From contig JAIDHX010000038.1 of NCBI GenBank assembly GCA_029053015.1, positions 1-64,000 of the forward strand: DNA of 64,000 nt, written 5' to 3'. The notes under the pieces are model-generated. The model had not been told where the DNA came from. It worked only from the letters and a program-made list of their open reading frames with translations, and searched no databases. The position numbers were made by a program, and so were the translations under genes. Shown here piece after piece: positions 47,851 through 58,582 of this stretch (position 1 is the stretch's first letter; every line of letters begins with the position of its first letter). This stretch comes from Lachnospiraceae bacterium (GTDB lineage: Bacteria > Bacillota > Clostridia > Lachnospirales > Lachnospiraceae).

Positions 47851-49716
47851 CTATTCTCCCAGCGAATATAGGGATAAGCTTCTTTGGCGTGCATCTGTAA
47901 AAGCCTTGATAGCGCTTAAAAACCGCTTTCCATATTTTTTCAGTTTACTCTCTCCCACACCAGAGACCTGCAGCAAATCATGTTCATCCTTAGGCAGCTT
48001 CACGCACATATCAATCAGCGTCTTATCATTAAAGATAATGTAGGGCGGCAGTGACTCCTCTCGCGCAATTTCAAGGCGGAGTTTTCGTAATTCCTCAAAC
48101 AAATCGTAACCCGCAGCCGTAAGAGAATCCGTGTTTTTCCTCCGCGCAGGCTTTTTCTTTTTCTCCGGTTCCTTCTCCTCATAGGTGCGCATAACCACGC
48201 GGGCGTTTTCATCTCCGAGCGGCGTAATATCCCCCAGCCTCAGCACACTGTATTTATCCTCCGTCTGATAGAGATATCCTTCCTCCACCATCTGGCTGAT
48301 CAGACTTCGTATCAAAGCTTCACCCGTATTTTTTAACGCTCCATACGATTTATAATTCACAGTGCCGAGCTCCCGCAGTCTTGCCCTGTCAGCGCCTGCC
48401 AGAGTTCCCAGCACGACGGTTAAGCCATATCGTCCCCTTGTCTCCGCCACACACTGTATGACCTGCCTTGCCTCAGCGGTCATATCCACTTCCTTATATT
48501 CTCTGTGACAGTTACCGCAATTATCACAGGGCATAGCAGTCTTTTCGCCAAAATAATTTAAAATATAATTCCGCAGACAGCCTGTCGTTCTACAGTATCC
48601 CTCCATCGTCTGCAGACGGCGCATATCCCGCTGCTTGACCAGTTCCGCATCTTCATCATCTAAGCCTGAAAAATCCTTCTGCTCCAGAAGAAATTTATTG
48701 ATGACGATATCCTGTGCTGAGAAAAGCAGAATACACTGCGCCGGTTCACCGTCACGTCCGGCTCGTCCCGCCTCCTGATAATAATTCTCCATGCTCTGCG
48801 GCATATTATAATGAATAACATATCTGACATTGGATTTATCAATCCCCATGCCAAATGCATTGGTAGCCACAATTACAGGCGCACGGTCGTATATAAAGTC
48901 ATCCTGATTTTTCTTTCTGGTTTCATTGTCAATACCCGCATGATATCTGGTAACAGAAACCCCTCTTTTGTACAGCGCTTCAAAAAGATTGTCCACATTT
49001 TTTCTGGTTGCACAATAAATAATTCCGCTGTCTTTCGGGTGCTTCTCTATGTAATGGATTACAAAATCCTCTTTCCTTCGTATATTTTCCACACTATAAT
49101 ACAGATTTTCCCTGTCAAAGCCTGTCACGGTCACATTTGGATTTACAAGATTCAGGATACACAAAATATCTTCCTTCACCTCTTCTGTCGCAGTTGCCGT
49201 AAACGCACTGACAATCGGTCTCTTCGGAAGATTCTTGATAAAATTCACAATTTTTAAATAACTCGGCCTGAAGTCCTGTCCCCACTGGGAGATACAATGC
49301 GCCTCGTCAACCGTTACCATGGAAATATCTGCGTGATATGCAAAATCTATGAAATCATAACTTTCCAGCCGTTCCGGCGCCACATAAATAATCTTGTATG
49401 TGCCCTTTGCCGCCAGATTTAACGCTTTTCTAATCTGCGTCTCAGTAAGAGATGAATTAATGAATGCAGCATGGATTCCGGCCTCGTTCAGCGCCTTCAC
49501 CTGGTCCTGCATAAGAGAAATAAGCGGTGATATTACGATGGTAATTCCTGAGAGCATCAGTGCCGGAACCTGATAACAGATAGACTTGCCCGCGCCCGTC
49601 GGCATAATGGCAAGCCCATCGCGCCCTTCTAAAATTGACTCAATGATACCTTCCTGCCCTTCTCTGAAAGAATCATATCCGAAAAAGATTTTTAACGTTT
49701 CCTTTGCATTTGCCAT
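47851..49716 (-). CDS. recQ: ATP-dependent DNA helicase RecQ
   Basis: 621 residues. Superfamily 2 helicase: GAGKSICYQVPA (I), DEAHCISQWGQDFRP (II), AFTATAT (III), QEAGRAGRDG (VI). A zinc-binding RQC region (CRTTGCLRNYILNYFGE with CDNCGNC) and winged helix follow, and a C-terminal HRDC domain (about 525-610, ending near SGVGESKLKKYGKRF). GGGGA before the ATG. It is the last gene of the tight run RecQ-ArsC-GNAT-PP2C, so it may share transcripts with the signalling operon. Confidence 0.94.
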   Translation of the reverse strand: MANAKETLKIFFGYDSFREGQEGIIESILEGRDGLAIMPTGAGKSICYQVPALMLSGITIVISPLISLMQDQVKALNEAGIHAAFINSSLTETQIRKALNLAAKGTYKIIYVAPERLESYDFIDFAYHADISMVTVDEAHCISQWGQDFRPSYLKIVNFIKNLPKRPIVSAFTATATEEVKEDILCILNLVNPNVTVTGFDRENLYYSVENIRRKEDFVIHYIEKHPKDSGIIYCATRKNVDNLFEALYKRGVSVTRYHAGIDNETRKKNQDDFIYDRAPVIVATNAFGMGIDKSNVRYVIHYNMPQSMENYYQEAGRAGRDGEPAQCILLFSAQDIVINKFLLEQKDFSGLDDEDAELVKQRDMRRLQTMEGYCRTTGCLRNYILNYFGEKTAMPCDNCGNCHREYKEVDMTAEARQVIQCVAETRGRYGLTVVLGTLAGADRARLRELGTVNYKSYGALKNTGEALIRSLISQMVEEGYLYQTEDKYSVLRLGDITPLGDENARVVMRTYEEKEPEKKKKPARRKNTDSLTAAGYDLFEELRKLRLEIAREESLPPYIIFNDKTLIDMCVKLPKDEHDLLQVSGVGESKLKKYGKRFLSAIKAFTDARQRSLSLYSLGE

Positions 49717-50099: not shown

Positions 50100-50618
50100 T
50101 CAAATCGTATAACTCATCTCGTGCCACTCTTCGCCGCCCCAGGTTGAATCTGCAATTCCGTGATCGCAAAATCCCATTTTCTCATACATCTTCACCTTCG
50201 ACTGCAAGCATGTAAGCAGAAGCATTTTTCTGCCATTCTCCCGTTCCCGCCTCAGATATTGAAATACTAATTCCCTTCCCAACCCCTGCCTGCGGTATTG
50301 TGGCAGTACATCAAGCCCTAATATCATAATGTTCTTTCCGGTCGGATTATATAAATTTGCATCCGTAAAAAACGCATCTCTGAAAATAGATTCATCTGTG
50401 GAAAGACCATTCAAAAAACCGGCCAGCTTACCTGTCTCTTTATCTACCGCAACCAGAAATAATTCCGGAGCCTTTGCAATCCGCTCCTTCATATGCTGCT
50501 CCGAGCACGCCTCATTCGGTGGAAAGCAAATCTGTTCAATCTCCACAGCCTGCTCTGCTTCCTCCTGTCGGATATTGCGAAATTCATATTTTTCCGGAAT
50601 ACCCTTTTCTGCAATCAT
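50100..50618 (-). CDS. GNAT-family acetyltransferase
   Basis: 172 residues from ATG 50618. An alternative TTG at 50627 would overlap the stop of the PP2C gene by 4 bases (TTGA). The acetyl-CoA motif is LDVLPQYRRQGLGRELV. It acetylates an unknown amine. It directly follows the phosphatase gene, so it could be part of the signalling operon, or simply transcribed by read-through. Confidence 0.75.
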   Translation of the reverse strand: MIAEKGIPEKYEFRNIRQEEAEQAVEIEQICFPPNEACSEQHMKERIAKAPELFLVAVDKETGKLAGFLNGLSTDESIFRDAFFTDANLYNPTGKNIMILGLDVLPQYRRQGLGRELVFQYLRRERENGRKMLLLTCLQSKVKMYEKMGFCDHGIADSTWGGEEWHEMSYTI

Positions 50619-50623
50619 GGTTA

Positions 50624-51388
50624 TCAATTTTTATCACCCATATCCTCTTCCGTTTCAATTAGTACTGCAGTGCAATCATCCAGACTTCCTTTTTCTACAG
50701 CTAATGAAACTAATCGGTTGACTTTATCTTTGGAAATCATGCTCTCATCAGTTACTATATCTTCTATTTCATCAATATCCAAAACGTCATGAATTCCATC
50801 CGATGTCATAAGAATCTTTCTTGGAAATCCTTTTTCAAAAATATTGTTTACAATAAGCGTATCTGCGAATTTAGGTGTTCCTCCGCCAAAAGCACCCCTT
50901 ATTTCGCTTTTATTACAATGTTCCGCTATCTCATCCTGACCTTTGTCTAACAACCATTGATATGTAGTCTGATCCGAGGTAACCTGCTTCAAAAAGCTGC
51001 CTTGCAGTGCGTATATCCTGGTATTTCCGCAGTGTGCCAACACTACACGATTATTTTCAAAAATAAGTCCTGTTATCGTAGTTGCCATTGACTCGTGACC
51101 CGAAATACTTTTGGCATATTCGATGAGTGCATCATTAACAGATAAAAGCCGAGCCTTTATTATTTCATTTGACTCATCTAATGAGAGATCAGATAATTGG
51201 TTCATTACGAACAAGGAAGCTTCATCTCCTCCTGCATTACCTCCCACCCCATCACTTATAAAGACTTTCCCTGTAGTATTCATTTTAAGGTCGCCCATTT
51301 CGTCATTAACCACCTGAGAGCCAATAAGCGCTGAATCATCACATTTATCTTTTTTGATTCCTCTTTGAATTTTATATGTGATTATCAT
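50624..51388 (-). CDS. PP2C-type serine/threonine phosphatase
   Basis: 254 residues from ATG 51388, chosen because GGAGG lies 7 bases before it; an ATG at 51394 is too close. The PP2C fold motifs are present: DGVGGNAGGDEAS, MATTITG, AHCGNTRIYAL, LMTSDGIHD and the C-terminal SLDDCTAVLI with the metal Asp. So a metal-dependent phosphatase, expected to reverse the kinase of the same operon. No TM or signal. Confidence 0.88.
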   Translation of the reverse strand: MIITYKIQRGIKKDKCDDSALIGSQVVNDEMGDLKMNTTGKVFISDGVGGNAGGDEASLFVMNQLSDLSLDESNEIIKARLLSVNDALIEYAKSISGHESMATTITGLIFENNRVVLAHCGNTRIYALQGSFLKQVTSDQTTYQWLLDKGQDEIAEHCNKSEIRGAFGGGTPKFADTLIVNNIFEKGFPRKILMTSDGIHDVLDIDEIEDIVTDESMISKDKVNRLVSLAVEKGSLDDCTAVLIETEEDMGDKN

Positions 51389-51400
51389 CGCCATTCCTCC

Positions 51401-52171
51401 TTAGCATTCGTTCTTTATCATTTCTGATATTTCTTTTAAGTATCTGCAATCCTTCCTTGAAAACGTTCTCTCAGTTATCTCCTCCAGCAATTCAGTTTTA
51501 TTTTGCATTATACTATTGACATCAATACTTATAGCCGATAGCATTTTCTCTTTCGTATTTATATTCAGACAATATCTTGAAGAAACATCTGCAATACTTG
51601 CCAGCACATTCGCATCCTTTTTTGTCCTCGCGCTAATATATGCATTTTCTAATGTGTTATCAGTAATTATGCTTAGCAACGAAACCAAATCATCGGAGGC
51701 TTTGTAAGAACCATTTAGATTTGTTATTTCGTGTGTAATTTCCTGCAACGCATTAATCTGGTTCTTAAGTTGCATTTTAATGTTATAGGCTAAATTCTCT
51801 GCCTTAGTTTCAAAACAAACTTCAAAGGGCTTGGAAACAACGCGACCAATGAACCAGTATACGATTTGGTCGAAAAACACCGTAAGCAATCTAAAATTGA
51901 CTCCATCATATTCCCAATAATACGGAGCTTCTGTTTTCCCTAAAATAATCAGTTGAACTACGCCAACACATACTATAATACCTAAGGTTAATGCCGGATT
52001 CTTTATTTCCTTTACTCTAACATAACAAATAGTAATACAGAGAATTATGATGCATATAATAGTTGCTATCCAAGGTCCCGGTGTATTCGCTTCACTTAAA
52101 TACATACTATAAACCAAAACCCAAAAACCGGAAAATAATAACCATAATCCTATTGCAATTATCCACATCAT
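51401..52171 (-). CDS. unknown membrane protein with cytoplasmic helical domain
   Basis: 256 residues, not recognised. Three clear membrane spans (about 3-23, 33-51, 60-78), a probable fourth (about 94-112), then a soluble helical region (115-256) with heptad-like LKNQINALQEITHEITNL and MLSAISIDVNSIM. It lies between the Clp-like gene (17 bases) and PP2C (6 bases), so it probably anchors the operon's proteins to the membrane. GTP- or ATP-binding motifs are absent. Confidence 0.75.
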   Translation of the reverse strand: MMWIIAIGLWLLFSGFWVLVYSMYLSEANTPGPWIATIICIIILCITICYVRVKEIKNPALTLGIIVCVGVVQLIILGKTEAPYYWEYDGVNFRLLTVFFDQIVYWFIGRVVSKPFEVCFETKAENLAYNIKMQLKNQINALQEITHEITNLNGSYKASDDLVSLLSIITDNTLENAYISARTKKDANVLASIADVSSRYCLNINTKEKMLSAISIDVNSIMQNKTELLEEITERTFSRKDCRYLKEISEMIKNEC

Positions 52172-52188
52172 TAATCTTTACTTTCCTT

Positions 52189-54063
52189 TCATTTATTTAC
52201 GACACATTCCAATGAATATGGCATATTGACGGTATCAATAGAGGTGATTGTAATCTCGCAATCCGAAAAAAGCTCATGATCAAACATATATCTCGACAAA
52301 GGATTTATAAGGAGACTCTCGACAATATTTCCAATTCCACGTCCGCCGTTATCAAGATTATCAATGGCCTTCTGTCGCAAAGTATTTACCGCAGTTTCCG
52401 ATATTTTCAAGTCAATATTTTTATCCATCTTTAAAGTTCTGATAATCTTTTTAATCTGGGACTGCAGAATTTCTTCGGCAGCACCTTCGCGGATAAAATC
52501 AAATACCACAATATTCTCGCCGATTCTATTTAAAATCTCCGGTCTTCCAAGTTGTAATTTAAAATAATCCTCTATCCCTTTTCGTACTTTCTCTTGAACC
52601 TGCGCATATGTCATATCTGAAGTGACACTCTGGTATCTTTCACCCCTTTCATTTACTTTGTATATCCCAAGATTACTGGTGAATATAATGATTGTCTCAG
52701 AGAAATAGACTGTATTCCCCTGCCCATCAGTCATACGGCCATCTTCCAGAATCTGAAGGAACTTATCAAAAATGGATGGATGCGCCTTTTCAATTTCGTC
52801 AAACAAAAGGATTGAAAACGGATTATTCCTTACTGCATTTGTAAGCTGCCCTCCGGCCTCATAACCAACATATCCCGGAGGCGCTCCCAGCAATTTTTGG
52901 TCGCTATGTGACTGACCATACTCACTCATATCAAATCTTATGCAACAGCTTTCATCACCAAAAAGCTTTTCAGCTAAAGTTTTTGCCGTCTCTGTTTTAC
53001 CGGTACCTGTCGGTCCTGCAAAAAACAGAATCCCCTTTGGTTTGCCATGTGAAGAAGACTGTAATCCGGCCATTCCGGTTATAGCTCGCTTTACTACATC
53101 AAGTGTTTTTGTCAAGGCATATTCTTGTCCCTTAATACGCTTTTGAAAATCCTCATATGCATTCTTCATTTCTTCATAATTCAGAGAATTCCATGGATTT
53201 TCCTTGATTCCAAACTTATAAAGTTCTATCACATCACACATATTTTTAATATGGATTCTCTGGTTTTTACAAAGACGCCGTAACCCATTCAATTCAGTAA
53301 ATGAAAATCCCTCTGTAAGACCTACAAATCTATCTTGAATCTTTTCTAACTCTTCCGGAAATTCTTCATAATGCGGGTATTCGTCAACATAAATATCTCC
53401 TGCAAAAAAGCTCGGAAAATTATCTCCCTTTACAAGCTGCTCGCGCTCTTCTTTAGCAGGTGTCTTTAGCATTACACTTTTTACATTTGGATTATCCAAA
53501 TAAAACCATGCGGGTACATCATTTACTTTGTTTACTAAAACCACCACAAGATTTTTTAATATTCCCTGCTCTGTTCTTACATCTTTACCTTCAAGGGATG
53601 ATTGCAGTAATATTGTAAACCCATCTATTTCCGACTGCTCCATATTCGTTGGGTCTGTAATATATCTTGAAGCAAAATCCAAAACAACAACTGTCGCCTC
53701 TTCAGATTGCGTAAGCGCAGTTCTAATATATGTTGCTGCTGTATTATTTTTCCCTTTAAATTCCGCCTTGATCGTATCTGCATCAATCGTTCCGCCAACC
53801 AATCCGGCAAACCGCTGAACATATCCTTCTTCACAGTTATTGTAAAAGCCACGAATACTATCATAAAAAGCAATGTTCTGATATCCTTGATCCTTAAAAT
53901 AATAATGTAAGTACTCTGCTAATCTCAATATACTTCCCTTACCAACGCTTCCATCAACAGGATATTGGTAACGATCCAAAACATTACCCTCTAATATGAT
54001 TATTGGCTTTATCTTACAGAATATATCCAGTTCCCTATGCCATTTAGGTATAAATTCTTCCAT
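52189..54063 (-). CDS. Clp-type AAA+ ATPase with degenerate N-terminal P-loop-like domain
   Basis: 624 residues. Residues 300-620 are a Clp D2-type AAA+ domain: Walker A AGPTGTGKTETA near 350, pore loop PPGYVGYEAGG near 395, Walker B LLFDEIEKAHP near 416, sensor 1 IIIFTSNLG, box VII RPEILNRIGE and sensor 2 GGRGIGN. This is the ClpB/ClpV second ring without the first. Residues 1-290 are a distinct domain that looks AAA-like but lacks a Walker A Lys; it has VVVLDFASRY, a Walker B-like stretch. No ClpP-binding IGF/IGL loop. It should be a protein unfoldase or remodeller. GGAGG precedes the ATG. Confidence 0.85.
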   Translation of the reverse strand: MEEFIPKWHRELDIFCKIKPIIILEGNVLDRYQYPVDGSVGKGSILRLAEYLHYYFKDQGYQNIAFYDSIRGFYNNCEEGYVQRFAGLVGGTIDADTIKAEFKGKNNTAATYIRTALTQSEEATVVVLDFASRYITDPTNMEQSEIDGFTILLQSSLEGKDVRTEQGILKNLVVVLVNKVNDVPAWFYLDNPNVKSVMLKTPAKEEREQLVKGDNFPSFFAGDIYVDEYPHYEEFPEELEKIQDRFVGLTEGFSFTELNGLRRLCKNQRIHIKNMCDVIELYKFGIKENPWNSLNYEEMKNAYEDFQKRIKGQEYALTKTLDVVKRAITGMAGLQSSSHGKPKGILFFAGPTGTGKTETAKTLAEKLFGDESCCIRFDMSEYGQSHSDQKLLGAPPGYVGYEAGGQLTNAVRNNPFSILLFDEIEKAHPSIFDKFLQILEDGRMTDGQGNTVYFSETIIIFTSNLGIYKVNERGERYQSVTSDMTYAQVQEKVRKGIEDYFKLQLGRPEILNRIGENIVVFDFIREGAAEEILQSQIKKIIRTLKMDKNIDLKISETAVNTLRQKAIDNLDNGGRGIGNIVESLLINPLSRYMFDHELFSDCEITITSIDTVNMPYSLECVVNK

Positions 54064-54064
54064 C

Positions 54065-54670
54065 CTATGTTTCCTCCAATCCTTTGTTTTTCGTTATAGT
54101 GCTTAGCTTGTCCTCATATTCCGGTAAATGTATTCCAACAGATATGATTCCATCTGATGTTGTAAAATTCTGAATCTTACTATGAGCATGTTTTAAATAT
54201 TCAATGTATCTTTCTTTAATCGACCTATTCAAATATATAATCCGCTGATTATCTGACCCTTTCAGCATGGCTCCATGATTTTCAGCTTCCACATACGGCC
54301 CGTCTATTATCACAGAAATATCTTTCAGTATATCATGGTATCGTCCAACCAGTTCTTCATACTGATATCCGGTATAGACCAAAATGTCATCGCTAATCGA
54401 ATGCAAATAGGGTAATAACTCTCTTAATGCATCCGATTGAAAAAAAGGATCACCGCCGGTTAACGTAAATCCATCTACTTTACAATTATCACAAATGGTC
54501 TTTAAGACTTTGATGATACCTTCTAATGAAATCTTATGCTCATCTTTCTGTTCCCATAGTTCGGGATTACTACAGCTAACACAACGATGCTCGCAGCCGG
54601 ATAACCAAAGAGCTACTCTGTTTCCCGGTCCCAAGACCTTCACCGGATATAAAATTCTTGCTATATACAT
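54065..54670 (-). CDS. NrdG-like radical SAM activating protein
   Basis: 201 residues. The 4Fe-4S cluster triad is C26, C30, C33 in GCEHRCVSCSNPE. GGDPF (TLTGGDPFFQ) is the second SAM-binding motif, as in NrdG/PflA activases. Length and order resemble NrdG, but there is no glycyl-radical enzyme or ribonucleotide reductase next to it. It overlaps the FHA gene by 10 bases and is 1 base from the Clp-like gene, so it is inside the operon. Target unknown: it could activate or modify a component of this system. Confidence 0.85.
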   Translation of the reverse strand: MYIARILYPVKVLGPGNRVALWLSGCEHRCVSCSNPELWEQKDEHKISLEGIIKVLKTICDNCKVDGFTLTGGDPFFQSDALRELLPYLHSISDDILVYTGYQYEELVGRYHDILKDISVIIDGPYVEAENHGAMLKGSDNQRIIYLNRSIKERYIEYLKHAHSKIQNFTTSDGIISVGIHLPEYEDKLSTITKNKGLEET

Positions 54671-55275
54671 GAGCCAATCCTTACCTGGAAATAAGCCGCC
54701 TCATCCTGTCTATTTCCATTTTGCATATTTCCGCCAAGACCTATCTCATCACCATCATGAAGTTCCTGTTTTCCCTCCGGTATTTTTATGTTGTTCACGT
54801 ATGTATAATTCGTTTGACTGATATTTCTTATAAAAAGGCAATTACCTTCCACGATTAACTCGGCGTGTTGTCTGCTCACATATGACTTTGCAGATAGATA
54901 CTCCTGCATTACTGCTTCGCGCCCTATAATGATTGACTGTTCCGCCAATTCATACGCATATGCGCCATCAAGAGATGCCAATGCAATGTGGTCATCTACT
55001 TGCTTCTCTTTATATTCCTCAACAGGAACTACATCCGATATATCCTCTCCACATTTTTCACATTTTCTGGCATTAACCGGATTGTGGGCTCCACAATCAC
55101 ATACTCTGACCATTTTCGCAGCAGTTTCTGCCTGCTCTTTTTTTTCAATACTCTTTTGTTCTATCTCTTCATCTATTACCCGAACATTTGATAAATCGGT
55201 TTCACATTGAATACATTCCAGCATTTTGGGTGGATTATGTTTTCCACAGTACGGACATACCTTGTATTTTTCCAT
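54661..55275 (-). CDS. zinc-ribbon and FHA domain protein
   Basis: 204 residues from ATG 55275, with AAGGAAGG 6 bases upstream. Two zinc-ribbon motifs: CPYCGKHNPPKMLECIQC near 5-25 and VRVCDCGAHN with CEKCGED near 60-80. The C terminus (about 110-195) is a forkhead-associated domain: IIIGREA, YVSRQHAEL and the Asn-Thr of NYTYVNN. FHA domains bind phosphothreonine, so it most likely reads phosphorylation by the adjacent kinase. It overlaps the stop of the coiled-coil gene by design of the operon. Confidence 0.85.
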   Translation of the reverse strand: MEKYKVCPYCGKHNPPKMLECIQCETDLSNVRVIDEEIEQKSIEKKEQAETAAKMVRVCDCGAHNPVNARKCEKCGEDISDVVPVEEYKEKQVDDHIALASLDGAYAYELAEQSIIIGREAVMQEYLSAKSYVSRQHAELIVEGNCLFIRNISQTNYTYVNNIKIPEGKQELHDGDEIGLGGNMQNGNRQDEAAYFQVRIGSCI

Positions 55276-55277
55276 AA

Positions 55278-56543
55278 TCATCCTTCCTTATGTAACTGCT
55301 TTTCCGCAACAGCCTTCTTCTTTTCTTTTTTATATGTTTCAACCGGACGCTTTAGTTCATAATCAGATGTATTGAATATCTGGGCATATTCTGCGGATGG
55401 CGGCAAAATAGATATCCTATTCATCATAACGCCTTTCTCAGCCAGTTTCTTTTCAAGAGCTGCATAATCTGCGCAAAAAGCGTACATATCATCTGCCAAA
55501 TCTATCGCTTCAGCTTCTGTCGGAATACGATCCTTGGTATCCAAGGCGCCCAATTCCATTGATATCTGCCCTGAATCTGAGAAAGTAACATTCACGGCAG
55601 TTCCTTCTTCCAACATATAAAGACCATTTCTGAATTTCTTACCACTCTTTTTCGTGACAGATTTCTCCCCTATCAGCTCGTATCCCATTTCAATCATTGC
55701 TTCATCAACTGCAGTACTGATATATTCCTGTTCTTTTTGGCACATCATTATTTGGTGCAATCTCGATATCTCCGACTGCAGTTTTCCGATATTTTCTTCA
55801 GAAAAAGCAAAATACTTTGCCGGTTCGCCCGTCTCTGCTGCCAGATAGGAATAATGAGACACAAGCTCTTTAAATTCAGAAATATGGTCTCTATAAAATT
55901 CACACTCATGGACGAACGGATATACCTGCATTGAACAAAAATTTTCCAAAAAATCTATGTTTTTTATTTCATCGGCACGCTTTTTTAACAAGGAATACTT
56001 TTCTTCTAATTCAGGTATCAGTTCAATAACCTCCGCCTTTTTAAGCGCCTCGTTAATCTTTACAATAAACGGATTGTCTTTTACCTTTCTATTTTTGCCC
56101 AATCCCGCAAAAGTCAAATCAAATCCTATCGAAATATCCGCTGATAATTCTCGTTGATAATCAGCAGCTATTTTGCGCACTATGTTTCTTCCAGTTATGT
56201 TAAGTTCCTGCATTTGTCCCAGAATTGTCTCCAAACGCCGGTTATCTTTTTTTAAAGACTCCAGAGAATCAAGTGCATTTGTGACCGAAAACAACTTTGC
56301 AAGTTCTGATTTTTTTGTTTCCAAAGTTTGAAGCTCTTCTATTCCCATATCAGATTCCATGCATAATCTTCTTAGATCTTCTATAACCGAAGCGATTTCC
56401 GATAACTTACCTGAACACCTCTTTTGCAAATCATTCTGTCTATCCCGTTCGATTTTGGTTTCTCTAATGATTCTTTCCCGCTCTTCAATCCTTCTTCTTT
56501 GCGCTTCTGTCAGAACATATCTGGCTGTTTTTGGTCCACTCAT
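55278..56543 (-). CDS. coiled-coil protein of unknown function (MSGPK start)
   Basis: 421 residues, not recognised. Starts MSGPKTARYVLTEAQRRRIEE, then heptad-rich helices (20-130) and a middle region that mixes Leu/Lys coils. The C-terminal 150 residues form a domain around GYELIGEKS, GTAVNVTFSDSGQISMELG and DLADDMYAFCADY. No signal, span or cysteine cluster. It is 51 bases after the kinase gene and next to the FHA gene. It could be the scaffold or substrate of the kinase. The N-terminal Ser/Thr-rich start would be a plausible phosphorylation site, but that is inference. Confidence 0.75.
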   Translation of the reverse strand: MSGPKTARYVLTEAQRRRIEERERIIRETKIERDRQNDLQKRCSGKLSEIASVIEDLRRLCMESDMGIEELQTLETKKSELAKLFSVTNALDSLESLKKDNRRLETILGQMQELNITGRNIVRKIAADYQRELSADISIGFDLTFAGLGKNRKVKDNPFIVKINEALKKAEVIELIPELEEKYSLLKKRADEIKNIDFLENFCSMQVYPFVHECEFYRDHISEFKELVSHYSYLAAETGEPAKYFAFSEENIGKLQSEISRLHQIMMCQKEQEYISTAVDEAMIEMGYELIGEKSVTKKSGKKFRNGLYMLEEGTAVNVTFSDSGQISMELGALDTKDRIPTEAEAIDLADDMYAFCADYAALEKKLAEKGVMMNRISILPPSAEYAQIFNTSDYELKRPVETYKKEKKKAVAEKQLHKEG

Positions 56544-56594
56544 ATCAATACCTTTTCCCTATTTACTAAATTCTTTTCAGCTTCATCAACTGCC

Positions 56595-58286
56595 CTAATC
56601 TTGTAAACTTTTTCTCCACCGTGCTATCTCATACTTCTTACCTAATGCACACAGCCAACTCTCAAATTGAATATCGAGATTATCATTATTATCAATCAGG
56701 TCTCGGCATAACTTTTCAAATTCGTCATAAGAACGCTCCATCGCATTCTTTAAAAACTCCGCCAATTCTTCGACGTTTTTGAATTCAACTCCTTTTTTAT
56801 AAAGGACTTTTCTTCCTGATAACATATATGCAAGCAAATAATAGTTTATTGTTCTCTGCCTGTCATCATTTATAAAAGCACGGTAGGATGACTCTATTGC
56901 TTTTACTGCATTTGCCTTTTGCGTATCATTCTCGTCCAGGCAGATTATATACTGCGATAAAACTCCCTTTTGCAATAATTCATCCACAAATGGATGCATC
57001 GATGTGTTGTTTTTCCACAATGCTTCAAGCAATTCATTTCCGAGTATCGAAATATCTTCGTATTGCTTTTCTTTCCAGAAAAACCGTGTCATAGTAGAAT
57101 CTATTTTATAAAGCGTTTTAAAGAAAATGATATCCTCATCTCCTTGTGACACTTCGCCTTCCGCATCCATACAGAACCCGGCAATTTCAGCATCAAATTC
57201 TTTGAAATACGCTGACAGCAGGCCCCTAAACAACTGCTTCTTTCCATCATTCCAATGTTCTATAAACGCATCAATCAGTTTTTTCTTATCTGTATATGTT
57301 TTTCTCAAAAATTTATACGGTCTGATATCCCCTGATACTGCCGTCGCACCCGTTATTTCTCCCGGAACAGGCTGCTTAATTCCAACACACCACTTTAGGA
57401 TTTCTTCGTACCCCCAACGCCGATTAGGGTTGGATTTATTCTTTCTATTTGTAATATCCGGATAAGTCAATGCACTAATTAAGACCTTTAATTCGTCCTC
57501 CATATCCGTAGGCAGTGGCAATTTCTGCACGGATACAAACTGCTCAATCTCGTCCTGAGTCATCTGAGCATATGGCGTATGTCCACAATACAATTCATAT
57601 AGAGTTATCCCCAAGGAATAATAATCTGACTCACTTAAAAACAAACTTTTAAATGTCTCCGGCGCTGAGTACTCCGGCGTCATTCCCGTTCTTGTTACAA
57701 TGACAGTATTTCCATCTTCTCTAATCGAACTGATTCCAAAATCAATAATAGCTACATCCTGACCATTATCCGCCAACATAATGTTTGACGGTTTTAAATC
57801 TTTATGAATTATTCCGTTATCATGTAACACCTTTAACCCTTCATTAAGAGCCGGAATAATACTTGTTTTAAGCTGATCATAGGAGAACTTTTTCTTTTCA
57901 AGACTTCCGTTTTTGTAGTACGGCAATACCTCGTACGGATACCCATCTATCTCTCCGGTAGCATATACTTTTGCCACATACGGAGAATCAATAGCCTGTA
58001 ATTTTTCTGTTACCTCTTCCTTGACTGCAACCTTTCGCCTATATATCTTTGCCACATAGCTGCTAATACCATCTGAGCCAATATATAAGTCTGCCTCTCC
58101 TGAAGATGTATTCATCTTGGATTGTATTGTGTATTTTCCACACAATGTTTCACCAATAACAACTCTTCCCGAATTCATAATCTGCTCATTGAGTACAGTA
58201 CTATTGCCTGAGGTCTGTGTGTTCAAAACTGTTGCATTCCGATTTCCATTTAACTGGGTTTTGTCGTTCATCTTTAAATTCTCCAT
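56595..58286 (-). CDS. Ser/Thr protein kinase (Hanks type)
   Basis: 563 residues. Catalytic set: ATP-binding Lys in VAKIYRR near 80, the HKDLKPSN catalytic loop near 162, DFGIS near 180, and TPEYSAPE. The N-terminal 45 residues are Asn/Thr-rich (NRNATVLNTQTSGNST), a good autophosphorylation region for FHA binding. The C-terminal 260 residues are helical and unknown. Start ATG 58286 overlaps the stop of a 32-codon small frame (TAATG), suggesting coupling; a second ATG at 58271 has GGAG 9 bases before it and is an alternative. It heads the operon and has a strong promoter. Confidence 0.88.
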   Translation of the reverse strand: MENLKMNDKTQLNGNRNATVLNTQTSGNSTVLNEQIMNSGRVVIGETLCGKYTIQSKMNTSSGEADLYIGSDGISSYVAKIYRRKVAVKEEVTEKLQAIDSPYVAKVYATGEIDGYPYEVLPYYKNGSLEKKKFSYDQLKTSIIPALNEGLKVLHDNGIIHKDLKPSNIMLADNGQDVAIIDFGISSIREDGNTVIVTRTGMTPEYSAPETFKSLFLSESDYYSLGITLYELYCGHTPYAQMTQDEIEQFVSVQKLPLPTDMEDELKVLISALTYPDITNRKNKSNPNRRWGYEEILKWCVGIKQPVPGEITGATAVSGDIRPYKFLRKTYTDKKKLIDAFIEHWNDGKKQLFRGLLSAYFKEFDAEIAGFCMDAEGEVSQGDEDIIFFKTLYKIDSTMTRFFWKEKQYEDISILGNELLEALWKNNTSMHPFVDELLQKGVLSQYIICLDENDTQKANAVKAIESSYRAFINDDRQRTINYYLLAYMLSGRKVLYKKGVEFKNVEELAEFLKNAMERSYDEFEKLCRDLIDNNDNLDIQFESWLCALGKKYEIARWRKSLQD

Positions 58287-58384
58287 TAATAACCTGTACT
58301 TTTCTCTTGAAGCTTAAAATGCTGCGCACATTGAAAAATAAAATAAAACGCAAAGAGCACCACCTTTACAGGTAATGCCCCCAT
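58286..58384 (-). CDS. candidate 32-residue hydrophobic small protein
   Basis: ATG at 58384, TAA ending at 58286, overlapping the kinase start as TAATG. The peptide begins MGALPVKVVLF, has a membrane-length run of Phe/Tyr/Ile residues (about 7-18) and a Cys/Lys-containing tail. The ribosome site is weak (a GGG 10 bases upstream). The overlap and the hydrophobic composition argue for a real small membrane peptide; a chance frame is not excluded. Confidence 0.45.
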   Translation of the reverse strand: MGALPVKVVLFAFYFIFQCAQHFKLQEKSTGY

Positions 58385-58467
58385 TGGTAAGTAACCCGCA
58401 AACCATTTTACAGGTCTAGAATTTTTGACATTCTCTTTGATTAACTACGCCACAGAATTCACTTGTT

Positions 58468-58496
58468 ATCATACTCATTTTAGCGAAATTTGTCAA
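58468..58496 (-). promoter_or_regulatory. strong sigma-A promoter of the kinase operon
   Basis: On the minus strand TTGACA (58496-58491), 17 bases, TATGAT (58473-58468): a perfect -35 and 5 of 6 at -10. The leader is about 77 bases to the small frame and about 175 to the kinase. The rest of 58289-58582 has no gene. Within it GCATTACC and GGTGGTGC can pair around a TGTAAA loop (58379-58358 region) and are followed by a T-rich run, a possible attenuator that overlaps the small frame. Confidence 0.75.
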
Positions 58497-58582
58497 TGAA
58501 ATCTTCCATTGCAATTTAATTGGCTTTCTTCTTGGATATGTTAAACTGCAGACCCTTTCTGTCCACAATCAGCAATGGGCCT

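Follow-up and report, generated by a model that had tools for sequence, protein, structure and literature searches.

We analyzed a 64,000-nucleotide stretch of DNA from a Lachnospiraceae bacterium (contig JAIDHX010000038.1; hereafter the window, meaning this whole stretch) and found that seven genes on its minus strand hold a recurrent cassette of six core genes: a serine/threonine kinase (STK), a coiled-coil protein that starts with MSGPK (CC), a zinc-ribbon FHA protein, an NrdG-like radical SAM protein (rSAM), a Clp motor of the ClpB-D2 type and a PP2C phosphatase. These six genes are one cassette and no chance cluster, and the cassette is apparently undescribed so far. The reading we favor, to which we give about an even chance, is a horizontally moving, phospho-switched protein-remodeling chassis of an anti-phage (anti-mobile-element) system with exchangeable effectors; we infer the part in immunity because many relatives of the cassette adjoin a predicted DNA-cutting defense gene.

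Recurrence of the cassette

Genome contigs were scanned with the N-terminus of the rSAM protein alone, which returned at least 80 loci (L023-L102), a sample biased by that query. All locus counts below are among the 80 matches listed, and a contig edge cuts off many of these loci. Judged by gene order, some of them repeat records from our other genome sets (L023 is L006, L068 is L007, L085 is L019, L091 is L017 and L093 is L020), and near-identical sets occur within the 80 (L028/L029, L047/L052 and L088/L089/L090). All six core genes were found in 37 loci, five or more in 57 and four or more in 68, and rSAM was present in 76, Clp in 72, FHA in 71, CC in 66, STK in 60 and PP2C in 53. The window meets the same description, with all six genes linked.

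When intervening other genes are ignored, CC and FHA are adjacent in 61/61 loci and Clp and PP2C in 53/53, followed by FHA-rSAM (66/68), rSAM-Clp (62/69), STK-CC (47/56) and PP2C-STK (13/41). Because their genes mostly stay together, the Clp motor and the radical SAM protein are suggested to act together. Of the 57 loci in which five or more core genes share a strand, 25 follow the order STK-CC-FHA-rSAM-Clp-PP2C. Permuted orders account for CC-FHA-rSAM-Clp-PP2C-STK (7 loci), Clp-STK-CC-FHA-rSAM (4), Clp-PP2C-STK-CC-FHA-rSAM (2) and rSAM-Clp-PP2C-STK-CC-FHA (1), and the other 18 loci have further orders, ten of them being five-gene runs of the main one. The orders are mostly cyclic permutations of a single circle, a pattern such as tandem duplications and deletions would leave by moving the ends.

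By record labels, Clostridia make up most hosts of the 80 loci, and Selenomonadales, Bacilli and Succinivibrionaceae also occur. Single metagenome-assembled genomes are labeled Muribaculaceae, Fibrimonadales, Chloroflexi and Abditibacteriota. Such labels can be mistaken, and no cassette is present at the locus labeled Abditibacteriota (L049). The distribution is patchy, at about 2-3% of the genomes sampled. With the window's own genome included in every count, relatives of the coiled-coil protein were found in 2 of 61 related genomes, its profile matched 8 of 391 class genomes (two of them, G268 and G328, weakly and without a cassette), and the Clp N-terminal profile matched 9 of 299 phylum genomes. 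Horizontal movement of the cassette is inferred as part of the favored reading. Carriage by viruses was considered and rejected: one scan of viral contigs with a three-row coiled-coil alignment gave no relative, the Clp motor matched no phage record at E 1e-60, and although the radical SAM protein matches 1376 phage records, the annotated ones among the matches listed (20 of 1376) are parts of anaerobic ribonucleotide reductase.

Helicase-nuclease partners and plasmid forms

After setting aside 22 of the 80 loci without visible upstream sequence and 3 with fewer than three core genes, 55 loci were informative about neighbors. A protein of up to 2099 amino acids, grouped by BLAST as cluster c0, is present in 24 of them; in L030, which is among these, no more than a 229-amino-acid end of it is visible at the contig edge, and two of the 25 loci set aside (L051 and L069) also carry it. 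The c0 gene abuts the kinase gene in 20 of the 24 loci, with gaps of -44 to +67 nucleotides. Three more have one open reading frame (ORF) of 80-82 amino acids before the kinase, and in one (L086) c0 lies downstream at the locus edge. Of the 30 proteins in the cluster, many of them cut at contig starts or ends, 27 were scanned (one duplicate and two short fragments were not): 25 have an MTES_1575 nuclease domain, 25 have AAA_11 and AAA_12 helicase domains and 17 have DUF4011. A representative from L028 scored 1324 bits against the PADLOC model PDC-S37 and 565 bits against Hhe. The abutment of c0 and kinase is not due to chance, because DUF4011 occurs in only 29 of 291 class genomes.

The association goes as far as fusion. 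On a Rhizobium plasmid, a single polypeptide of 2086 amino acids holds Pkinase, DUF4011, AAA_11/12 and MTES_1575 (by Pfam, and by PADLOC also), and a Caballeronia plasmid encodes a protein of 2101 amino acids with PADLOC kinase and PDC-S37 matches. Both fusions start, by eye, with zinc-ribbon-like cysteine pairs and adjoin a Clp gene, a radical SAM gene and a gene for a protein starting with MSGPK; the Caballeronia locus also has a DUF4236-like gene (by eye). The similarity of these two coiled-coil proteins to the MSGPK family is moderate (E 1.8e-4, hhalign probability 48.7%), and a Geminocystis coiled-coil protein matches the family at E 9e-10 for a search space of 1000.

A stereotyped five-gene plasmid form of proteobacteria, in the order helicase, PIN, coiled-coil-like, Clp and radical SAM, was found in Polaromonas, Leisingera, Photobacterium, Moellerella and Acinetobacter, where Clp and rSAM stand without an annotated kinase or PP2C alongside. 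Its coiled-coil proteins start with MSRAD, MSAIH, MSEYH, MSKIE or MYLDR and showed no homology to the MSGPK family by hhalign (probability 0.13%). The Polaromonas set is compact and lies on plasmid pPNAP02. Its helicase matches MkoA (340 bits), as do the helicase from Moellerella and both fusion proteins, and the Polaromonas PIN protein matches MkoB at E 1e-4 over residues 9-209 of 610 only. Clp and radical SAM genes abut in 8 of 10 plasmid loci; in Geminocystis they are about 9 kb apart, and the Rhodococcus locus has no labeled Clp of this type.

Threonine motifs in the kinase tails

The N-terminal tails of the kinases are rich in the motif T-x-[ILVM]-[NMP], a pattern chosen after inspection of the tails. 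In 57 of 73 kinases (16 were excluded because they lacked the glycine-loop pattern, were too short or had a short tail), the tails hold 140 copies against 15.3 in shuffled sequences (standard deviation 3.7, maximum 30; 1000 shuffles), whereas the serine version of the motif occurs 8 times against 12.8 in shuffles. The density is 4.56 per 100 amino acids in the tails and 0.13 in the rest of the kinases, with two or more motifs in 45 of the 57 tails and none in 8. Since FHA domains bind phosphothreonine with selectivity at position +3, the repeated motifs are likely FHA docking sites and the best candidates for that role. The very long tail in L034 (3880-6327) has ten motifs, the most among the tails, and those in L094, L095 and L096 contain several near-perfect ERIPTMPQ repeats.

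The window's clade and a possible recent exchange

In a quick tree of 75 Clp proteins, with support by the Shimodaira-Hasegawa-like approximate likelihood ratio test (SH-aLRT) only, the window falls in a six-row Lachnospiraceae group in which no row has the helicase. This group is nested in one of 46 rows, where 21 of 32 scored rows have the helicase. On the tree, helicase presence needs at least eight changes (five forced by starred branches), compared with 17.2 in shuffles, and 0 of 500 shuffles were as low. Between Clp and PP2C, the window, L024 and L027 have a membrane protein gene, L031 has another gene and L025 has none.

The membrane protein is the fast-changing member of the window's set. 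Compared with the copy in genome G017, it is 83% identical with a ratio of nonsynonymous to synonymous substitution rates (dN/dS) of 0.69, and the other six proteins are 97-99% identical with ratios of 0.06-0.19; it differs at 44 of 257 positions and the rest at 52 of 2277 (Fisher p 3e-20). A second copy in the window's genome, on contig C5, has a reduced set of kinase, membrane protein, coiled-coil and radical SAM genes, with a coiled-coil protein 37% identical to the window's. Its membrane protein reaches a dN/dS of 0.68, whereas the kinase, coiled-coil and radical SAM genes of that copy have 0.17-0.20 and other nearby genes 0.07-0.40; the two membrane proteins share no BLASTP similarity (best E 0.67). 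The C5 copy (L005 7578-12552; L007) looks eroded, with an FHA remnant between the coiled-coil and radical SAM genes followed by a hemerythrin/response-regulator-like protein (by eye), and had no Clp or PP2C match within the stretch examined. Near it, at L005 1371-5593, are three radical SAM genes in tandem that by eye resemble maturases.

Synonymous divergence (dS) of the window cassette is 0.06-0.14, compared with 0.28 for the flanking GNAT gene, 0.26 for ArsC and 0.18 for RecQ. The C5 cassette has 0.05-0.10 against 0.10-0.31 around it, with an adjoining gene as low as 0.10. The block that can be aligned with G017 stops at 58497, at the promoter of the operon; past this point the window has a GNAT gene (by eye) and a helix-turn-helix gene, and G017 has a GmrSD/DUF4268 gene 303 bases from its cassette copy. 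Because dS lies below that of the flanks and the alignable block ends at the promoter, the comparison fits a cassette that was exchanged recently. Seven same-genus regions with a GNAT orthologue had no shared synteny beyond scattered helix-turn-helix-type matches, and no empty insertion site could be demonstrated among them. The RecQ gene of the window (47851-49716) encodes 621 amino acids, compared with 785 in G017, a stretch near the C-terminus being absent.

Layout of the operon and its proteins

The ORFs of the window were assigned with Pfam and NCBIfam, and the motifs in their proteins were checked by pattern match (Table 1). An earlier model-made note on this DNA, which we call the sequence-only reading, had described a compact operon of seven genes with gaps of at most 51 bases and overlaps behind one strong promoter, and its account of the layout is borne out. 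The seven ORFs span 50624-58286, and the joints from kinase to PP2C are +51, -4, -10, +1, +17 and +6 bases, with two overlaps within the set. Its domain calls for the kinase, the zinc-ribbon FHA protein, the radical SAM protein, the Clp D2-type motor and the phosphatase agree with Pfam and NCBIfam. The promoter it had pointed out ranks first of 38 promoter-like sites in a 9.7-kb scan, though the total of such sites is not above shuffles (32.6, standard deviation 5.8). A GNAT gene with a TTG start (50100-50627) lies downstream and overlaps the PP2C gene by 4 bases, and given this overlap the transcript may extend past PP2C.

Table 1. Coordinates of the operon's features in the window
Feature	Position	Strand	Description
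Sigma-70-type promoter of the operon	58468..58496	-	TTGACA-17-TATGAT, 11/12 consensus matches
Leader hairpin	58353..58382	-	Terminator-like, possible attenuator; 13-pair stem, then TGCGTTTTAT
Ser/Thr kinase, 563 aa	56595..58286	-	Pkinase 4.3e-31 at residues 94-281; remainder without family
Kinase N-terminal tail, residues 1-37	58176..58286	-	Three T-x-L-N motifs (T10, T19, T30), candidate phosphothreonine docking sites for the FHA protein
MSGPK coiled-coil protein, 421 aa	55278..56543	-	No Pfam family; N-terminus and C-terminal domain conserved (alignments)
Zinc-ribbon FHA protein, 206 aa	54661..55281	-	Pfam FHA 1.8e-12; Zn_Ribbon_1 in two stretches
NrdG-like radical SAM protein, 201 aa	54065..54670	-	Fer4_12 3.4e-30; CX3CX2C intact
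ClpB-D2-type AAA+ motor, 624 aa	52189..54063	-	AAA_2 7.6e-50 at 342-515; first ~300 aa without recognized family
Membrane protein, 256 aa	51401..52171	-	Three hydrophobic stretches, then soluble part (hydropathy); fast-changing candidate sensor or effector
PP2C phosphatase, 256 aa	50624..51394	-	Stp1_PP2C_phos 1.4e-31, under model cut-off

Between promoter and kinase, two predicted hairpins (58353-58420) have CCTGTAAA in common, the second being terminator-like, and the pair is a possible attenuator. The leader hairpin sequence is identical in the G017 copy. The fold of the leader has a z score of -1.86, with 10 of 200 shuffles equally good; terminator-like sites overall are not enriched (4, compared with 5.0 in shuffles), and an Rfam search of the leader RNA gave no match at gathering level.

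The catalytic signatures of the kinase (VAK lysine, HKDLKPSN and DFG) and of the phosphatase (SDGVG and DDCT) are all intact, and the FHA domain retains its GR and SRQH residues. The coiled-coil protein had only chance-level matches in Pfam and NCBIfam (best E 0.01), and its profile found only generic helical proteins among solved structures (22 sequences, best E 5e-4). An MSGPK start is present in 66 of 77 coiled-coil-labeled ORFs of the family, a count that takes in duplicates, plasmid records and truncated ORFs.

The radical SAM protein also keeps a TGGDP motif. Against the NrdG model TIGR02491 it reaches E 8e-32 and 110.4 bits, under the cut-off of 126.1, and so is not classed as an NrdG activase; by sequence, it has relatives among solved structures only in pyruvate formate-lyase activase (2 distinct sequences), and two more NrdG-like matches, on contigs C23 and C55 of the same genome, are 29% identical to it. 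The Clp motor has intact Walker A, Walker B and GYVGY pore-loop motifs. Its residues 297-608 match positions 554-845 of the 853-position ClpB model, so the full ClpB architecture of N domain, two AAA domains and middle domain is lacking. A ClpP loop marks motors that feed a protease; because the ClpP-loop pattern is absent from this protein, it probably remodels rather than degrades. The pattern occurs in 3 of 82 members of the Clp family. The membrane protein had no Pfam or NCBIfam match.

Other genes in and around related loci

A BLAST cluster with BspA-type leucine-rich-repeat proteins, one member of which was scanned, lies in or near the rSAM-Clp slot of L032, L033, L035, L041, L046, L048, L055, L061 and L077. 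By eye its members have no signal peptide, and several have a coiled-coil start; they are possible cytosolic sensors. In some other loci, membrane proteins occupy the STK-CC slot. A DUF4236-type protein (cluster c2, one member scanned) follows PP2C in 15 of the 80 loci, and in a Succinatimonas locus the upstream place is taken by a DUF2357 gene and a PDC-M26A-like gene. A gene for a TraG/VirD4-type coupling protein (624 amino acids) stands immediately before the coiled-coil gene in L020 (7443-9317) and L093 (6187-8061).

DISCUSSION

For the way in which such a chassis might work we offer a tentative mechanism: a kinase with a multi-phosphothreonine tail and a zinc-ribbon FHA adaptor would drive an unfoldase and a radical SAM enzyme that post-translationally arm interchangeable effectors. 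Infection or damage would lead the kinase to phosphorylate the repeated threonine motifs of its own tail. The FHA protein would then bind these sites and recruit the Clp ring and its radical SAM partner to the complex, where the ring would unfold or load a partner and thereby arm the effector. The best candidate for the client or scaffold is the MSGPK protein, and the effector would be the helicase-nuclease in many relatives and the membrane protein in the window. Because the rSAM gene mostly stays beside Clp, radical SAM modification might license the motor or the client, and PP2C would reset the switch and hold it off in healthy cells. A further reading, which we hold less likely than not, is that this amounts to a new class of immune machine with radical SAM chemistry on an immune protein, in which the anaerobic or redox state may gate immunity.

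Several observations weigh against the defense reading and its mechanism. Thirty-one of the 55 informative loci are without the c0 helicase, and the window copy has no nuclease; DUF4011 had no match in its own genome, which is 97.8% complete. The flanks in the helicase-less clade are not clearly defense islands. Four neighbors were scanned in L024, giving one GlgB-like match and three without any, and two in L025 gave no match. Among six neighbors scanned in the window, four had no match, the helix-turn-helix gene matched helix-turn-helix parts only, and RecQ matched the RecQ-like DpdF, which we take as generic. The threonine motif is also enriched in the coiled-coil proteins (72 versus 33) and the FHA proteins (92 versus 24), an enrichment that by eye comes at least partly from one conserved site each (T-A-V-N and T-Y-V-N). 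As the dN/dS of the membrane proteins is below 1, their fast change could come from relaxed constraint just as well as from positive selection. Finally, the plasmid forms keep the radical SAM gene without an MSGPK start.

The cassette could instead be a toxin-antitoxin or abortive-infection module like KKP, with the kinase as toxin, PP2C as antitoxin, the FHA protein for targeting, and Clp and radical SAM as accessories. KKP consists of a PP2C and two kinases, one of them FHA-linked, and has anti-phage activity, as described in its paper (PMC11341870); the window likewise combines FHA, PP2C and kinase, and the helicase-less loci agree with such a module. However, the terms Clp and radical SAM are absent from that paper (PMC11341870), rSAM-Clp adjacency is stricter than PP2C-kinase adjacency, and in the five plasmid loci Clp and rSAM persist with neither a kinase nor PP2C annotated beside them. 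We consider a KKP-like module unlikely.

We give a similarly low probability to phospho-regulated stress or envelope homeostasis, in which the membrane protein would sense the envelope, Clp and radical SAM would repair or mature a cytosolic complex, and the helicase would be a repair enzyme. The window, with a membrane protein and no nuclease, agrees with this, as do the membrane proteins in the STK-CC slot of other loci, the leucine-rich-repeat-type proteins around the rSAM-Clp slot and at least one housekeeping-like flank (the GlgB-like gene). The patchy distribution, dS below that of the flanks, plasmid carriage and defense-listed partner families are unlike housekeeping genes, and the fast change of the membrane protein fits conflict, though also relaxed constraint.

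It is quite improbable that the radical SAM protein stands at the center, activating or repairing a glycyl-radical client that Clp opens, with Gly3 of MSGPK as a possible site. Such a role would suit a protein resembling NrdG and pyruvate formate-lyase activase, and the MSGPK start that is common in the family and reaches the distant Rhizobium and Caballeronia proteins. However, the five plasmid forms dispense with that start and retain the radical SAM gene, the invariance of M1-G3 in our alignment is by construction, as its rows were picked for an MSG[PF] start, and Pfam finds no glycyl-radical enzyme family among the seven window proteins.

Secretion or surface assembly under type VI-like control is very improbable: the four activities of that control and a membrane protein are present in one locus, and L096 has a large Ig-like-repeat protein upstream, but the sheath family PF05943 has no match in the genome, the motor is nearer to ClpB (267 bits) than to ClpV (229 bits), both far under cut-off, the FHA protein scores 21 bits against TagH (cut-off 120), and the recurrent neighbor clusters c0-c4 contain no secretion family (c5 and c6 were outside the scan).

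If the favored reading of a phospho-switched defense chassis is true, helicase-nucleases that already count as defenses have a whole neighboring layer of signaling and remodeling that went unnoticed, and one immune system brings together Hanks-type phosphorylation, phosphosite recognition by FHA, AAA+ unfolding and radical SAM chemistry. The fast-changing membrane protein would then be the place to seek a phage-facing surface.

Comparison with known systems

Neither outcome that the sequence-only reading had named as refuting it came about: Pfam, NCBIfam, PADLOC and the open-licence literature (titles and abstracts) yielded no named system with the set, and the linkage of the genes extends to other genomes, as the loci with four or more core genes indicate. 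In PADLOC at E 0.1, the coiled-coil, FHA, radical SAM, membrane and PP2C proteins of the window had no match, and the kinase and motor matched generic domain models only.

The threonine-phosphorylation pathway of type VI secretion consists of PpkA, PppA, Fha and ClpV, and the cassette resembles it in that a single locus combines a kinase and a PP2C with FHA and a Clp-type motor. It differs in its ClpB-like motor, its additional zinc ribbons, its radical SAM protein, its coiled-coil protein, and a genome without the sheath family. The contractile sheath model (VipB/TssC) was positive in 1 of 14 control genomes (E. coli), and the ClpV model TIGR03345 has a cut-off of 885 bits. Filing under type VI secretion was rejected on these sheath and motor tests. 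The sequence-only reading had proposed a phospho-switch related to that of type VI secretion and had noted that no sheath gene is present: the link of a kinase, FHA and PP2C set to a Clp-type remodeler stands, as does the absence of a sheath gene, now over the whole genome, and kinship to type VI secretion is not supported. Of the defense, stress and surface roles that it had left side by side, defense is favored by the helicase-nuclease partners of the relatives, with the reservation that the window copy itself lacks a nuclease.

The likeness to PDC-S37 and Hhe lies in the usual upstream partner, through the scores of its representative and the helicase and nuclease domains in 25 of 27 partners. 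These model names suggest single proteins, as we take the S in PDC-S37 to mean single. With five of its seven proteins unmatched in PADLOC and no DUF4011 in its genome, the window does not belong to either. For Mokosh, the helicases of plasmid relatives match MkoA strongly and the Polaromonas PIN protein matches MkoB weakly, but no Mokosh model matches the other three products of that form (Clp, radical SAM and coiled-coil), and with no helicase among its seven proteins the window falls outside the system. The kinase scores 119 bits against Mad6 of MADS and the motor 25 bits against Mad8, both matches being confined to the generic kinase or AAA domain.

KKP shares with the cassette PP2C, kinase and FHA and serine/threonine phosphorylation, the anti-phage activity being that of KKP; by the definition in passages of its paper (PMC11341870), it has two kinases with CSD and FHA domains and goes without mention of Clp or radical SAM, whereas the window has one kinase with neither an FHA nor a CSD domain. 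In the hotspot cDHS1 of Pseudomonas aeruginosa, passages of the report (PMC10250203) treat a large DUF4011 gene and a radical SAM gene as flanking core genes at the edge of a core defense hotspot and not as a system. Compared by description only, this DUF4011 and radical SAM pair (PMC10250203) may be the same pairing that we find around the cassette.

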